A DNA stretch of 35,547 nucleotides from positions 1 through 35,547 of the IMG/VR virus record IMGVR_UViG_3300021579_000024; one strand, 5' to 3'. A program made the translations under genes and the position numbers. Numbering within the stretch: position 1 is the stretch's first letter; each line of letters starts with the position of its first letter. This stretch comes from a virus. Below, piece by piece: positions 1 through 35,080 of the stretch. The notes beneath the pieces are model-generated. The model searched no databases, was not told where the DNA came from, and saw only the letters and a list, made by a program, of their open reading frames with translations.

Positions 1-127
1 ATCCGGTTCCATTGGGTCAACAGGTTCATCCCATGAACCGGTCATGTCGAAAAATCCGGTTCCATTGGGTCAACAGGTTCATCCCATGAACCGGTCATGT
101 CGAAAAATCCGGTTCCATTGGGTCAAC
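1..127. repeat. 53-bp tandem repeat array, 2.4 copies, cut by window edge
   Basis: Two full 53-bp units (1-53 and 54-106) are identical, and a third partial unit covers 107-127. Each full unit holds a perfect inverted repeat, GGTTCAT-CCC-ATGAACC (23-39 in the first unit), and a CCATTGGGTCA motif (9-19, 62-72, 115-125) that recurs near the right end of the window. The array sits just downstream of the primase terminator and probably continues to the left. Iteron-like origin, operator cluster or a repeat that broke the assembly are all possible; I cannot choose between them. Confidence 0.9.
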
Positions 128-161: not shown

Positions 162-2663
162 TCATTCGTCCATCGTATCGGGGTCGTACCCCTTGACCAG
201 CTTACGATCGTGGCCCTTCTCGTATGCGTAGCGGTAAATGTAGTCAGCATGGCGCTGCTTGGCCTTGACAACCTTCTCGCGGTACGCCTTGAACATGGTA
301 GGCAGGGACGGGTTGATGGCCCACAGAATCCGCTTCTTGTGCAGGTCGTTCTCTACCTGCGCCACCCAGCCCGCCTGCTCCAGCACCAGCATGGCGTCCA
401 TGACAGCCTGATCCTTCTGCCAGTCGGTCTTGCCCTCCAGCGGCCTGCGGGCTGACTTCTTCAAGGTGCGCAGGTCAATGGTCTGGACATCCCCGCTGAT
501 CTGGATGATGTGGTCGATGACCCACTGGTCAAAGTCATTCGTGATGACCCCACCCACCTCGCCCAGTGCGTAGCGGTACGCGGGGATCACGTAACCACGA
601 ACCAGGCTCACGACCCTGTGGACAACCTCGGCCTGCACCTGCGGCATGAAGGGCGATTCGATGATATGAAACAGCAGGATCAAACGACCCGCCAAACCCT
701 CCAGCTTGCCGAACGCCGTCATGTACTCGCTGCCACTGTCAAGCACGCGCTCGTCCTGCTTGGCATCCTCGTACCATGATTGGAACTCACGGAACGCTGT
801 GAACGCTTCTGTGGATAATTGGTAGGTCTGGGGCGGCAGGGCGTAGACCAAGCGCAGGGTGTTCTCCCACGCTGTCGCGCTGGTCATGTAATCCGGGATC
901 GGGTGACCTAGCTTGGTCTTGCGGACACGAAGGACGGCGGGTACGAACCGCTGCAATAGACCATCCGCTGCGAGAGACGCCAGGTTTTGCCTGAACACTT
1001 GGGGCTGAATGTTCCCGTAGATGCTCACGGCCAGGTTCTCGCAGTAGATCGACCCCGCGCCTACTCGGTCCATCTCGTAGTGTTCTGACTCGTAACTGAC
1101 AACCCACGCGGAGCGATCCTCGCCGCTGGTCTTGTCTGTCATCTTGCGCACCCAAGAGTTCATCTCGTCGAGGTGACACAGCAGGCCACGGGGCCGGTCT
1201 GCTGCTTGGCGCACCAGCTTCTGACTCGTGATGTCGCTGACCGTGATCTTGAGCGGTACGGGCTGCGGCGGCATGTCGGGCACCGTGGGGGCTTGGTCAC
1301 CGCCCAGCATGGCCTCGGGGCTGGCAGAGAACTCCAGAAACGCCTTCTTGGCGCTGGCGTAGGCAGCCTCCTTACCCTCCCACTCCAGCAATTCCTTACC
1401 GTAACGGGGCCGGTCCTCGGCTTCGATGTTCTTCAAGGGTGACAACATGGGTCGGGAGCCGGGGGACTTCTTGTCCGCTGGATCACCGAGGGTCATGAGC
1501 CACAGCACAGGCGGCACACGGAAACCCGGCATAAGCTCGAGCCGGGTGCGGGCGTCAACCACCCCGCAGACAGCGGCCAACCCAGCGAACAAAGGCACTA
1601 AAGGGTCGCAGCCCACGCTTTCACTGATCTCGTTGGAACGCTGGCGCAATATGGTGGGCCACAGGTCCATGTTCATATCGGGCGGCTTGGGGCGCAGCCC
1701 GTCAATCACGTCCAACGGCTCCATGACAGGAATGGTGACCTTGCTGAACAACTCGGACGCATCGGGGATCGGGCGCGTCCACCCGTGCTTACGGGCAATG
1801 TGGAAAAGTGTCCCCAGCTTGACAGCGGTGGCCTTGTCCGGCTTGAACGACATCCATTGCGTCAGGATTTCCCGCTCCCCTGGGTACTTGAACTGGGCAG
1901 TCGATGACCAGTCATGCCACAGGTGCAGTCCCTGCTCAAGCTGGTTGGTCTGGGTGCCTGCCCAGTGCAGGGCCATGCCGATGGATGCCCAGTCGTCGCG
2001 GGAGCAGTCGGCGGGTACTGAATCCAGTGCCTGCCTGATCTCATCCCACGATGCGTCAATCGTGCCGTCCGTGGTAATGGTGCGGTCCTTGTCCTGCGCC
2101 AACAGCCCGTTCCACAGATCGAGCAGTGCCTGCGGGATCACCGGCAGACGGGTCCAATGACCCTTACCCGCCCAGTGGTAGGGCTGGCGTGTCTCGGGGT
2201 GGATGCTCGGGGGCAACACGTCCTGCACCGTGAGGCCACTGGCCGTGGCGCAGCGCAACTCGTAGGCGGTGATGCCGCTGTGGAGAATCTTCTTGCTCGG
2301 CAGCGCAGCGCCGAAGGGCATGGCATACAGCAGCTTGCCGTGACCGGGCTTGCCCGAGTGGATGACCACCGCATCAGGCGCGTCATAGAGGGCTCGCAGG
2401 TCAACGCCATACTCGGCCAGCATACTCGTGGTGATGGTCCAATTGTCGATGTCAAGCGCCATCGTGCCGCTGTACGCATGGGCCAGCCCGATGCCGAAGC
2501 CCGTGGGCAGGTCGCCTTGGGCCTTGAGTGCGTTCCTCTTGAGGTTCCAGCCCGGGGTGCGCGGCCCCTTGGTGCCGCCAGGGATGGGCACAAGGCTCCA
2601 GCCGTGCCGGATGTACGCGTCAATGGACGCGGGATGCGGCTGAACTGTCTGGGGGAGCATCAT
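162..2663 (-). CDS. Primase-polymerase / DUF3987 helicase-like replication protein
   Basis: The 833-residue protein looks like a fused primase and helicase-like replication protein. The N-terminus (about 1-170) fits the bifunctional primase-polymerase (Prim-Pol) domain: an acidic DID motif at 71-73, SGKPGHGK at 103-110 and PPSIHP at 151-156. Residues about 205-295 resemble PriCT-2, the linker seen after Prim-Pol domains. The rest, from about 330, resembles DUF3987, a P-loop domain found in phage and plasmid replication proteins. Its P-loop is odd: GDPADKKS (393-400) has Lys where the second Gly is usual. A Walker B-like LDEM follows near residue 500. The start is ATGATG, overlapping the stop of a 14-codon leader ORF, so translation is probably coupled. 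It is transcribed away from the other replication genes and ends at its own terminator. Confidence 0.85.
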   Translation of the reverse strand: MMLPQTVQPHPASIDAYIRHGWSLVPIPGGTKGPRTPGWNLKRNALKAQGDLPTGFGIGLAHAYSGTMALDIDNWTITTSMLAEYGVDLRALYDAPDAVVIHSGKPGHGKLLYAMPFGAALPSKKILHSGITAYELRCATASGLTVQDVLPPSIHPETRQPYHWAGKGHWTRLPVIPQALLDLWNGLLAQDKDRTITTDGTIDASWDEIRQALDSVPADCSRDDWASIGMALHWAGTQTNQLEQGLHLWHDWSSTAQFKYPGEREILTQWMSFKPDKATAVKLGTLFHIARKHGWTRPIPDASELFSKVTIPVMEPLDVIDGLRPKPPDMNMDLWPTILRQRSNEISESVGCDPLVPLFAGLAAVCGVVDARTRLELMPGFRVPPVLWLMTLGDPADKKSPGSRPMLSPLKNIEAEDRPRYGKELLEWEGKEAAYASAKKAFLEFSASPEAMLGGDQAPTVPDMPPQPVPLKITVSDITSQKLVRQAADRPRGLLCHLDEMNSWVRKMTDKTSGEDRSAWVVSYESEHYEMDRVGAGSIYCENLAVSIYGNIQPQVFRQNLASLAADGLLQRFVPAVLRVRKTKLGHPIPDYMTSATAWENTLRLVYALPPQTYQLSTEAFTAFREFQSWYEDAKQDERVLDSGSEYMTAFGKLEGLAGRLILLFHIIESPFMPQVQAEVVHRVVSLVRGYVIPAYRYALGEVGGVITNDFDQWVIDHIIQISGDVQTIDLRTLKKSARRPLEGKTDWQKDQAVMDAMLVLEQAGWVAQVENDLHKKRILWAINPSLPTMFKAYREKVVKAKQRHADYIYRYAYEKGHDRKLVKGYDPDTMDE

Positions 2664-30714: not shown

Positions 30715-32256
30715 TCACGACCCCATCCAAGATGTTGAAACAGCCCCAGTCTGCGCGTTGCGCCTGGGTGCTGTGCGATCATTGTACTCCCGATGTGCAA
30801 CAGGAAACGCAAAAGTCACGGCGATGGCGTCAGCGGCATCTGGTGAGGCCAGACCACGGGCTTTCATCTCCTTCTTGCCCTCCAGGAAGATGGTGCCCGC
30901 AGAGTTCGGCTTCTTCATCGGCCCGACCAGATCGGCCCTGAGGAGCCTGTCCTGCGGCAAACTGGCCGACTTGATCCAATCGCGCATAGCCCCCCAAATC
31001 TCGGCCCTCTTGTTACCCCACATTACAGGGTTTTTGGCTTTCCACCCGAAGTTGACCCCGCGCACTTTGTACTTCTGCTCGGTCAACCTATCAAGGACGC
31101 CATACCCGAGCCCACCCTCGTCGATCACGGTGAGCGCCGGTCGATATTCCTCGATGGCGTCGATCACATGGCCCACGGTAGTCATGGTGTCGTCGCCACG
31201 AAACCGCTTGATGGACACAATGTCACGCCCACGGCGCACGGCGATCACGGTGCTGTCCATGCCACCCCGTGCCGGGTCCACACCGATCACGACGGGCGCG
31301 GTCATGTCCTTGTACTGGGGTCGTTTCATGGCGTCATCGACGAGGTGGGGCGCAATGAACTGGTCTTGACCGCTCTTAGGGAAATCTCCATAGACCTCGA
31401 CCCGTGCTTCGTCGGAGTCCTCGCCGTACTCCTCGATGATCTGCTGGTAAATGGTCTTGTCGGTGCCCTCGACGGTGCGAGCGTCGATCTTCTCAGACTC
31501 CCAGAAGTCGCGCTTATTGCCGTCCACTGACTCGTAGAAATATCCAGTGTTGCGCCGACCGTTGCTGAACGCGAACCAGTATCGGTCGAGGATGTTCTCG
31601 GTGAAGAACCCCGCAGCCACGGACCAGATGCTGTCTGGGATACCCGACGCTTCGTCGAAGATCACCATCATGCCGTCCATGTTGTGCACACCGGCATAGG
31701 CGTCGGGGTTCTCCTCGCTCCATAGCTTACCCTCGGCACCCCAGTAGCGGGTGCCTTTACGCAGGTCACGCTCAACCAACTCGGTCAGCCACTGCGCAGG
31801 GTTCAGGCTCGTGGCCGTCGGCTCCCACCAGTGAGCATTGATAGCCATCGTGACCCACTTGGTGAGTTCACCCCACGTCACCTTGCGCAACTGGTTCTCG
31901 CTGTTGGCCGACACGATGACGCTTGACCCAATCCGAGTGGTCAGCATCCACAGGATCAGCCACGACACGAGTGCTGACTTGCCGACACCACGACCCGATG
32001 ACACGGCCCGCCTGAGCGCGTCGATCAGGTCGCCCTCGGTCAGCTTACCCCGGTTCTCTTTGATGAAGTCCCGTATCCTGCGCAGCATTCTCCTCTGCCA
32101 AGCCCGAGGCGCCTTGAAGTGTTCGAGTGGGGTGTTCTTCTGCCCCCAAGGAAACGCAAAGAGCACAAACGACTCTGGGTCATCCTTGATGTTAGGACTC
32201 CAAAGCTGCGTCATGAGCATCTGCTCCTCTTCGGGGCTGTATCTCATTTTTTGCAT
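30715..32256 (-). CDS. Terminase large subunit (TerL)
   Basis: The 513-residue protein is the packaging motor. The ATPase has Walker A GRGVGKS (88-94) and Walker B MMVIFDEA (196-203). The RNase H-like nuclease has the first acidic site in VIGVDPARGGMD (323-334), the second in VIDEGG (377-382), and the third in SPDAADAIAVTF (471-482). It cuts and pumps DNA through the portal together with TerS. Whether it uses headful or site-specific ends cannot be read from this sequence. The start overlaps the TerS stop by one base. Confidence 0.92.
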   Translation of the reverse strand: MQKMRYSPEEEQMLMTQLWSPNIKDDPESFVLFAFPWGQKNTPLEHFKAPRAWQRRMLRRIRDFIKENRGKLTEGDLIDALRRAVSSGRGVGKSALVSWLILWMLTTRIGSSVIVSANSENQLRKVTWGELTKWVTMAINAHWWEPTATSLNPAQWLTELVERDLRKGTRYWGAEGKLWSEENPDAYAGVHNMDGMMVIFDEASGIPDSIWSVAAGFFTENILDRYWFAFSNGRRNTGYFYESVDGNKRDFWESEKIDARTVEGTDKTIYQQIIEEYGEDSDEARVEVYGDFPKSGQDQFIAPHLVDDAMKRPQYKDMTAPVVIGVDPARGGMDSTVIAVRRGRDIVSIKRFRGDDTMTTVGHVIDAIEEYRPALTVIDEGGLGYGVLDRLTEQKYKVRGVNFGWKAKNPVMWGNKRAEIWGAMRDWIKSASLPQDRLLRADLVGPMKKPNSAGTIFLEGKKEMKARGLASPDAADAIAVTFAFPVAHREYNDRTAPRRNAQTGAVSTSWMGS

Positions 32257-32819
32257 CAGCCGTTCTCCAGTCTCGGGGTCACGTCAACCACCTCCGCATC
32301 GATTACCCGTGCCTGAGCCTGCGCCAGCGCCTCAGTAATCGAGATCGTCCCACCTAACTCGATCTGCTTAGTTTCCCCGTACCGCTTGCGGTTGTGGGCG
32401 CCCATGAGCCACTTGCGCGTGTCGATGCGCAGCTTGTCCCGGTTCACCGTGTCGTTGCTGGCCGGGTCAATGGCGCCCACGCCATCGGCAATCTCAAGAA
32501 TCTCCCCGGCCAGGAACTCGGTGCGCATCTCCTGCGCTTCTTTGAACCGTTCGTGGCGTTGGGGGTCGCGTTTGACCCAGCGCAGGAAATCCTCATAGGA
32601 CACGACCCGATGGTCGTCTTCGATCAAGGACTGAAGGGAGCGGCCACGATAGATATCCTCGATGACGCGCTCGAAGATTTGCTCGTATTCGAGATGGCGC
32701 AACTCACGCGCTGACTTGGAGGTACGCGGGGGCTTGGGGTCTGGGCACGACAGCCAGTTTGGTAATGGGGATTCACCGGTGACAACCGTGCCTAGGGAAT
32801 AAGTGTTGCCCTGTTCCAT
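32256..32819 (-). CDS. Terminase small subunit (TerS)
   Basis: The 187-residue protein matches terminase small subunits of related phages: a helix-turn-helix-like region (about 45-85, FERVIEDIYRGRSLQSLIEDDHRVVSYEDFLRWVKRD), a helical oligomerisation part (RHERFKEAQEMRTEFLAGEILEIADG), and the signature NRDKLRIDTRKWLMGAHNRKRYGE (about 128-151). It binds the packaging site and regulates TerL. The ATG at 32819 has no Shine-Dalgarno sequence, and a -10-like hexamer ends only 9 nt upstream, so a nearly leaderless message is possible. It is the first gene of the late operon and faces the repeat-rich region. Confidence 0.88.
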   Translation of the reverse strand: MEQGNTYSLGTVVTGESPLPNWLSCPDPKPPRTSKSARELRHLEYEQIFERVIEDIYRGRSLQSLIEDDHRVVSYEDFLRWVKRDPQRHERFKEAQEMRTEFLAGEILEIADGVGAIDPASNDTVNRDKLRIDTRKWLMGAHNRKRYGETKQIELGGTISITEALAQAQARVIDAEVVDVTPRLENG

Positions 32820-32828
32820 AGTGCTGTG

Positions 32829-32837
32829 ATGGTATCA
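32829..32837 (-). promoter_or_regulatory. Candidate late promoter, extended -10, inside a palindrome
   Basis: On the minus strand TGA-TACCAT is an extended -10 just before TerS, with an expected start about 3 nt before the ATG. It overlaps the perfect inverted repeat GTGAT-GGT-ATCAC (32826-32838). No clear -35 exists. The TGRTAC core is shared with the candidates at 2802 and 9923. Confidence 0.4.
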
Positions 32838-32960
32838 CGATCTATGAATTTGTGGAACGGGGGATAACGGAACCCGTTGGGTTTTTAGTTTTTGAAAAAT
32901 TTTCACGGGGTCTGTGGTGCCTGCGTAGACGAAACCATGACCCTCTCGGCCCTCCCCCTC

Positions 32961-33024
32961 CCGGCACCCCGGCACCCCGGCACCCCGGCACCCCGGCACC
33001 CCGGCACCCCGGCACCCCGGCACC
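32961..33024. repeat. 8-bp tandem repeat, 8 perfect copies
   Basis: CCGGCACC is repeated eight times without error. Such perfect short arrays change length by slippage. It sits about 140 bp upstream of the TerS gene. Confidence 0.95.
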
Positions 33025-33027
33025 AGC

Positions 33028-33207
33028 GGGTCAAGACGCCCCACCCCTAGGCCCTACCCCTAGGCCCAATGGGTCAATGCACCCTTGGCATCCTAGCCCA
33101 GGGCCCCAGTGGGTCAAGACGCCCCAAAGACCCGCTGGGTCGGGGTGTCGCGGGGGGCTTTGGTGCGGTGGATCGGGCTGTTGGTCAATGCACCCGCTGG
33201 GTCAAGA
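33028..33207. repeat. Cluster of interspersed direct repeats
   Basis: Pairs of direct repeats interleave here: GGGTCAAGACGCCCC at 33028-33042 and 33111-33125; ACCCCTAGGCCC at 33043-33054 and 33056-33067; GGTCAATGCACCC at 33072-33084 and 33183-33195. GGGTCAAGA appears once more at 33199-33207. The shared core is TGGGTCAA, also present in the left-edge array. Iterons for a replication protein or binding sites for TerS are plausible. Confidence 0.85.
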
Positions 33208-33264
33208 GTCGGTCGAAAAGCGGGGAAAAAGACGGACCCAGTGGGGCAAAAAATGGGGTGGTGA

Positions 33265-33326
33265 CAAAAGGCCCTTTCGCGCCCAGGAGACATTTGGTAG
33301 AGCACTTTTCGAAAGGGTCTTTTTTT
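33265..33326 (+). terminator. Intrinsic terminator in the intergenic region
   Basis: AAAAGGCCCTTTCG (from 33266) pairs with CGAAAGGGTCTTTT (from 33310) with one G-U pair across a 30-nt loop, followed by T residues to 33326. In plus orientation it is a good intrinsic terminator. No plus-strand gene precedes it, so it may end a small RNA or block readthrough into the accessory promoter. Confidence 0.65.
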
Positions 33327-33431
33327 CTGGATTTTCAGGATCCGACCCCCCGGACCAAAAGGGCCGGCTGTCACCGGGTCATCGACTCGCCACCCAGTGG
33401 GGAGCCCAGCATCTTTTTTTTCACTGCCCTA

Positions 33432-33459
33432 TTGACATGCTGACCCAATGGGGTAAAGT
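33432..33459 (+). promoter_or_regulatory. Promoter of the accessory operon
   Basis: TTGACA (33432-33437), a perfect -35, is followed after 16 nt by TAAAGT (33454-33459). The spacer contains TGACCCAATGG, the exact reverse complement of CCATTGGGTCA found in the left-edge repeats, so it may carry an operator. Transcription would begin about 40 nt before the first small gene. Confidence 0.75.
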
Positions 33460-33505: not shown

Positions 33506-33781
33506 ATGACCACAATCGAACTTGATGACGCCCTCTGCGCACTGAGCGCAGAGGCCCAAGCAGCCTTCGCGGCTTGGGTAGTGGCCTGCACCCCCGCGCT
33601 GGCGGAGCGTGCCCAAGCGGCGGTGGCCGCTAAATCGACCCTCGTTCGGGGGGTTCGGGTCGTAAGCCTCTCCCACGAGGCTGCGCTTCTCGCCACCCGG
33701 CAATCGCCGGTGGAAGAGTTCGAAGCATCATATGCTTCCACCCGAGGCGCCCACGCCCACTGGGTCGCCCGGGCAGCCTGA
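33506..33781 (+). CDS. Small Ala-rich accessory protein
   Basis: The 91-residue protein is unknown to me. It is acidic at the start (MTTIELDDALCALSAEAQ) and helical and Ala-rich through residue 45, with a later Val/Ser/Arg segment (TLVRGVRVVSLSHEAALLA) and an Ala/His end. The ATG at 33506 has GGAG 6 nt upstream behind the SD-adjacent hairpin and lies about 47 nt after the promoter -10; the open frame continues upstream through the non-coding repeats only as a shadow. Its size and place fit the accessory genes that phages use against host functions, but no role can be read. Confidence 0.65.
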   Translation: MTTIELDDALCALSAEAQAAFAAWVVACTPALAERAQAAVAAKSTLVRGVRVVSLSHEAALLATRQSPVEEFEASYASTRGAHAHWVARAA

Positions 33782-34471: not shown

Positions 34472-35080
34472 ATGATCACCATCGAAACCCGCCTTTTTTG
34501 CAAGGCCTTGAGGTTCGCTTCTGCGTGCGCCGCGAGAAAGGACATCCGCTTCTATTTGCTCGGCGTTCGAGTCGAGGCGGTGGGCGACACGCTGACCCTT
34601 TGCGGCACCGACGGCGCACGCATCGCAGTGTGTGCACTGCGTATTGACAGCGATTCGATGACCGACCTATCGCTGACGATAGGCAACGACGACGTGAAGC
34701 GAATCCTGGCCGCGTTCGGCAAAGACAAAGGCCAAATCGTACTGAGGTCAGAACGTCAAGCGGACCAGGTGCCTACCTTGATAGTCGAGGCCGGGGGCGT
34801 GATCCTGCGGATTAAGGCGGTGGGCGGGGTGTTTCCGGACTACCGCCGTGTGATTCCCCCGACCGATCGAGAGCAGGGGGGTATGCCCATCATCGATGCT
34901 CTTCTCATGGCAGAAGCCTGCACGGCGCTAGAGCCGCTTGCGGGCAAGCTCAAAACCAGCTGCCCCGTTCGATTCGATTCGACCGGCAACCCCGGGGCCT
35001 CGGTTGTGGTGCGCCCTTCGGTCATCCACGATCCCAGGATTACCGATTTGATGGTCGTCATTGCGCCGATTCGTGTCTGA
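34472..35080 (+). CDS. Shortened DnaN-like sliding clamp protein
   Basis: The 202-residue protein resembles domains II and III of the bacterial beta clamp. Residues 11-129 align by eye with E. coli DnaN domain II: ACAARKDIRFYLLGVRVEAVGDTL against AHQDVRYYLNGMLFETEGEEL, then CGTDGARIAVC against ATDGHRLAVC, and GGVFPDYRRVIP (118-129) against DGRFPDYRRVLP. The end MVVIAPIRV resembles YVVMPMRL, the DnaN C-terminus. Domain I is missing and domain III is shortened, against about 366 residues for DnaN. It could be a clamp that forms rings with more subunits, a partner of the phage family B polymerase, or a decoy for host clamp-binding proteins. No clamp loader is seen. It lies between two copies of the three-hairpin element. 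Confidence 0.75.
   Translation: MITIETRLFCKALRFASACAARKDIRFYLLGVRVEAVGDTLTLCGTDGARIAVCALRIDSDSMTDLSLTIGNDDVKRILAAFGKDKGQIVLRSERQADQVPTLIVEAGGVILRIKAVGGVFPDYRRVIPPTDREQGGMPIIDALLMAEACTALEPLAGKLKTSCPVRFDSTGNPGASVVVRPSVIHDPRITDLMVVIAPIRV

Follow-up and report, generated by a model that had tools for sequence, protein, structure and literature searches.

The DNA analyzed here is a single linear contig from a virus, 35,547 bases long, and this whole stretch, referred to below as the window, looks like part of a P22-like podovirus. Toward one end of it terL adjoins terS, the gene for an Sf6-like terminase small subunit, while a gene for a primase-helicase is found at the other, and a DNA polymerase operon is also present. 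Among annotated phages, the nearest is DSL-LC05 (OR003940), a circular, metagenome-assembled genome of 37,569 bp with the proposed family name "Luchaoviridae". Between terS and an accessory operon transcribed in the opposite direction is an intergenic region of 686 bp that contains most of the features considered in this study, as follows.

1..127, plus strand: 53-bp repeats, homologous to the 3' end of a gene for a helix-turn-helix (HTH) regulator
162..2663, minus strand: Prim-Pol/DUF3987 primase-helicase gene
32256..32819, minus strand: terS, terminase small subunit (Sf6-like), divergent neighbor of the array
32829..32857, minus strand: predicted terS promoter, TTCCAC-N17-TACCAT, with extended -10 TGA
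32872..32882, no strand: putative operator 1, ACCCGTTGGGT, exact, its center 43 bp upstream of the terS -10
33064..33074, no strand: putative operator 2, GCCCAATGGGT, one mismatch
33104..33114, no strand: putative operator 3, CCCCAGTGGGT, one mismatch
33130..33140, no strand: putative operator 4, ACCCGCTGGGT, exact
33192..33202, no strand: putative operator 5, ACCCGCTGGGT, exact
33236..33246, no strand: putative operator 6, ACCCAGTGGGG, one mismatch
33260..33376, no strand: conserved element of ~112 bp (mostly 111–116), bounded by GTGACA...TGTCAC, with equivalents in relatives L003–L083
33392..33402, no strand: putative operator 7, ACCCAGTGGGG, one mismatch, 51 bp before operator 8
33432..33459, plus strand: accessory-operon promoter, TTGACA-N16-TAAAGT
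33443..33453, no strand: putative operator 8, ACCCAATGGGG, one mismatch, in the -35/-10 spacer and touching the -10 box
33506..33781, plus strand: first accessory gene after the promoter (91 aa), without a family match

The accessory operon also contains a sliding-clamp-like gene (DNA_pol3_beta_2, 34472–35080), which among 60 relatives was observed in L050 and in a clade lacking the regulator described below, and nowhere else.

The original prediction for this DNA described an array of ACCCARTGGG motifs at 32961–33459. The sequences on which it was based are all present: CCATTGGGTCA at 9, 62, and 115, its reverse complement TGACCCAATGG at 33441–33451 between TTGACA (33432–33437) and TAAAGT (33454–33459), and related sites near 33066, 33107, 33197, 33236, and 33392. 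The array is real, but its unit had been misdrawn. K-mers enriched across 59 relatives show the unit to be an 11-bp palindrome, ACCC-R-N-Y-GGGT. The cluster at 32961–33459 is thereby retained, but it reaches further on the terS side, and two overlooked sites, at 32872 beside the terS promoter and at 33130, join the five related ones. In the 686-bp region there are eight sites with no more than one mismatch (three exact, five with one mismatch), whereas 2000 dinucleotide shuffles of the region gave a mean of 0.26 such sites and a maximum of 3, and a mean of 0.01 exact sites. Motif density was not equal elsewhere, as the remaining 34.9 kb of the window has four sites of this kind. Even in its earlier form the motif was enriched beyond chance (CCMRTGGGTCA with up to one mismatch, 12 found versus 3.5 expected; TGGGTCAA, 8 versus 1.4). 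Sites that are not tied to promoters are irregularly spaced.

Other sequences were noted around these sites. Just before the operator cluster is a perfect tandem repeat of CCCGGCAC, present eight times (32960–33024). A conserved A/T-rich tract, AAAATTTTTTCAAAAA... (32883–32910, with equivalents in L003–L083), directly adjoins operator 1; after it, near the terS side, comes another conserved block, for example GGCATCAC. The tract may correspond to an UP-like element or to bent DNA. The conserved ~112-bp element between operators 6 and 7 has CGCGC and C-rich inner blocks and is kept even in clades without the operator array. Its minus strand in the window has a folding z-score of -3.9. We rejected it as a structured RNA, however, as RNAalifold on 38 sequences gave neither covariation nor a supported structure, and there was no match in Rfam at the gathering score. 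The element is possibly protein-bound or part of an origin.

The positions of the two outermost operators relative to the promoters are highly constrained. Operator 8 lies within the accessory-operon promoter in the layout TTGACA-tgctg-ACCCAATGGGG-TAAAGT, and in 25 distinct promoters the last base of the corresponding operator touches the -10 hexamer (center 6 bp before the start of the -10), a flush position that holds for both 16- and 17-bp spacers. On the other side, the terS promoter has an extended -10, TGnTAnnnT, ~15 bp before the ATG, and the operator lies upstream of it, with center-to-minus-10 distances among relatives of 32/33, 42–44, 53, 74/75, or 86 bp. These distances had a mean resultant length of 0.93 at a period of 10.5 bp (n = 25 sequences that are not independent, with five periods tried), and such helical phasing points to a protein that always works from the same side of the helix with respect to RNA polymerase.

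The sites are conserved in relatives and are not peculiar to the window. In 41.3 kb of terS-proximal DNA there were 223 copies of ACCCARTGGG (47 of 59 loci), versus 10 in 620 kb of flanking sequence. When the records of 18 relatives were scanned whole, the exact sites among the matches listed were mostly in one cluster; in the three of these records without the regulator a single exact site each was among the matches listed. ACCC-N3-GGGT is, furthermore, the densest 4-N3-4 palindrome in nearly every region-covering locus that carries the regulator.

Comparison with relatives also clarified the overall layout. In relatives, an unbroken stretch of 2.4–7.1 kb holds the primase end, accessory genes, non-coding region, and terS, and therefore the two ends of the window adjoin in the phage genome. 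The array had been proposed to link these ends. They do adjoin, but this is because the contig broke inside a 53-bp tandem repeat at the regulator gene's 3' end, and not because both carry operators. Only the 3' end of the window's own regulator gene is present on the contig, in left-edge copies that are tandem duplicates of each other. In the 300 bp beside the primase end, there were no CCCARTGGG sites across 59 relatives, and TGGGTCA was at a background level of 0.34/kb. With the motif missing there in relatives and the DNA matching the regulator gene, we rejected the left-edge repeats as operators and no longer count them as members of the array.

In this DNA homologous to the end of the regulator gene, the window reads ...HVEKSGSIGSTGSSHEPVMSKNPV and relatives such as L007 read ...HVEKSGSTGSTTSTPDSVMSENPV, followed by the stop; L007 is a close relative that has CCACCGGCTCAACC where the window has CCATTGGGTCAACA. 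Since 53 is not divisible by three, the reading frame of the window's repeats can be fixed only with the missing upstream part. In both the window and L007 a core, CGGTCATGTCGAAAAATCCGGTT, recurs at intervals of 53 bp, reading as GHVEKS in one frame and as SVMSKNPV in the other. DNA-level repeats at this gene end were seen in the window (1–127), L007, L016, and L042, that of L042 being unrelated and continuing beyond the stop codon.

Clustering of the ORFs between terS and the primase gene revealed one regulator family in 53 loci, with a further member in L056 found by tblastn. The gene sits toward the primase end, that is, distally in the accessory operon, and encodes a protein of ~75–130 aa. 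The family includes the "repressor protein C" of DSL-LC05, its only homologue in annotated phages, and no homologues were found in bacterial genomes. The regulator is absent only from six genomes, L058–62 and L081, and these are array-less. Because they form one clade on the primase tree, their co-absence counts as approximately one evolutionary event. The correspondence of regulator and array presence or absence (MCC 0.75) was nonetheless the highest among the accessory families tested. Four loci have the regulator and fewer than four sites: L069 and L070, which have a variant helix together with a variant operator, and L009 and L077, which have three sites each. In the regulator-less clade (L081, L061, and L059) we noted another palindrome, AACATC-N11-GATGTT, around the same promoter, with four copies in L081; L058 and L060 repeat GTAACCATGTARCCGCAT instead. 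No convincing candidate for a replacement regulator was seen among the accessory genes of the AACATC-N11-GATGTT clade.

An AlphaFold model of the regulator from alignment A2 (pLDDT 85) has five helices and a predicted XRE/lambda-repressor-like HTH fold. Foldseek matched the model to HigA2, MqsA, C-proteins, Aca, and P2 C, with probabilities of up to 1.00 and weak E-values (best 0.09), and Pfam matches to HTH_3, HTH_31, and Phage_CI_repr were below cut-offs. As in XRE regulators, the candidate operators overlap the promoter of the regulator's own operon, in 25 distinct promoters, with the regulator gene distal in that operon.

Variation in the regulator's putative recognition helix, V-(F/Y/H)-T-x-R-(K/N/H)-W, was accompanied by variation in the palindromes. 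Proteins with Lys (..RKW) occur with ACCC operators, C being the base at position 2 of 1100 of 1216 half-sites from 82 loci, whereas proteins with Asn (..HTLRNW) occur with AGCC operators, in which position 2 is G in 43 of 66 half-sites from four loci that are essentially one clade, so that the helix/operator change amounts to about one clade. HTLRKW proteins keep ACCC (L064), and therefore the change from Lys to Asn is the better correlate. The AGCC-N3-GGCT operators occupy the same places as ACCC sites; in L069 the flush position is kept, as TTGACA-acgtg-AGCCAATGGCT-TATACT. Proteins with His (..RHW) accompany sites like ACCCAGCGGATC. TerS likewise diverges in the Asn and His groups.

Overall, our data support that the array is the operator region of an MqsA/XRE-type HTH regulator encoded distally in the operon that the array would control, a reading to which we assign a probability of about 0.87 based on comparative sequence evidence. 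The suggestion of a binding site for a phage regulator is thus strongly supported, and co-occurrence and covariation name a specific XRE-type HTH protein as the likely binder. The sites, their confinement, their geometry, the co-occurrence, and the covariation are direct observations.

The original prediction had also offered an origin-binding protein or terminase as the binder. The palindromes would, in the former case, be replication-origin iterons bound by an initiator, with the promoter overlap secondary. There are several short repeats beside the conserved A/T-rich tract (AAAATTTTTTCAAAAA) and the 112-bp inverted-repeat element, and initiators often autoregulate. However, site positions are locked to promoter elements, with the other spacings irregular, the protein that correlates with the array is a small HTH protein of the XRE type, and the primase and polymerase are kept in array-less clades. 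GC skew has no clear switch at the region, and no finding specifically favored an origin, which we consider improbable. Recognition sites for terminase (pac/cosB-like, TerS-bound) are more improbable still. Other phages are known to have terminase sites close to terS, and here the array adjoins terS and TerS itself belongs to an HTH protein family. The presence of sites does not follow TerS type, however: L058–62 and L081 have a TerS 76–79% identical to that of the window and no sites, while L055–57, with a TerS 66% identical, retain them. A site in a -35/-10 spacer, flush with the -10, would also be unexpected for packaging. For these reasons TerS was rejected as the binder.

That the array is an artefact of chance or composition in G+C-rich, repetitive intergenic DNA, with the left-edge repeats included, has almost no probability. 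The region is indeed G+C-rich with an 8-bp tandem repeat (CCCGGCAC x8), and the left-edge copies are mutual tandem duplicates. The artefact reading holds for those copies only. For the intergenic array it is already refuted by the excess over shuffled sequence (8 sites versus 0.26) and by conservation and confinement across dozens of relatives.

Under the operator reading, each ACCC-RNY-GGGT palindrome would be occupied by a regulator dimer. The dimer on operator 8 would take up the spacer between the -35 and -10 and block RNA polymerase, so that the regulator would repress its own operon. At operator 1, on a fixed helix face upstream of the terS promoter, it may activate or otherwise modulate transcription of the packaging genes, and the regulator probably tunes this promoter. 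The middle sites probably raise occupancy or permit looping. As complete DSL-LC05 has no integrase annotation and no bacterial homologues of the regulator were found, the system seems to be a temporal switch in lytic phages and not a means of controlling lysogeny. A more speculative extension, which we think is rather doubtful, is that these apparently lytic phages have a lambda-like two-way switch in which one small MqsA-like protein silences the accessory operon and activates the terminase promoter. If this were so, co-evolution of helix and operator would prevent cross-regulation among co-infecting relatives.

These data provide a candidate DNA target, and hence a testable role, for a gene of uncultivated podoviruses otherwise known just as a weak HTH match. 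They also offer a natural helix/operator series for studies of XRE specificity (RKW/ACCC, RNW/AGCC, and RHW variants), and suggest that phages without annotated lysogeny genes retain a repressor-operator switch that lies between their accessory genes and those for packaging.

The proposed system has features in common with several known ones. Aca proteins and C-proteins are small XRE autoregulators that bind their own promoters; the phage regulator shares their small XRE fold and is related to them by Foldseek, although no anti-CRISPR or restriction-modification operon was identified beside it. Repressors of the Cro/CI type (lambda, P2 C) are similar in the small HTH, the repeated palindromic operators over a promoter, and the divergent control region. 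They differ in that similarity to them is low, DSL-LC05 is without an annotated integrase, and the gene for the phage regulator is not beside the operators but at the opposite end of the operon. The stoperators of Cluster A mycobacteriophages also combine one repressor with many short site copies, but stoperators are described as asymmetric and genome-dispersed (PMC9283540, PMC6550527), whereas the sites here are palindromic and in one control region.

The closest comparison is to the antitoxin and repressor MqsA (E. coli, P. putida), whose C-terminal DNA-binding domain was the best PDB sequence-profile match to the regulator, albeit a weak one (HMMER E 0.006; the Foldseek match was also weak, E 0.25). 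The phage protein is much shorter, matching that domain alone, and the 45 aligned phage proteins begin just before the HTH, with no counterpart of the MqsA-type N-terminal zinc domain, which has four Cys (PMC4803016). No MqsR toxin was noticed beside the regulator; the single neighboring family checked, family 1, had no family match. Two MqsA residues to which PMC5422877 assigns an important part in DNA binding, Asn97 and Arg101, correspond by a hand count on the HMM alignment to the variable F/Y/H and K/N/H residues in the phage helix. Both proteins have an XRE-type HTH, and both systems have a 4-3-4 palindrome with ACC../..GGT arms. MqsA binds AACCT-N3-AGGTT (PMC4894380), also written ACCT-N3-AGGT (PMC5422877); the phage sites are ACCC-N3-GGGT, with equal spacing and a different fourth base, and the phage has ~8 operators versus one or two for MqsA. 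MqsA binds its own promoter, and operator 8 overlaps the promoter of the regulator's own operon. Judged from its sequence, then, the phage site is not an MqsA operator but would work like one.
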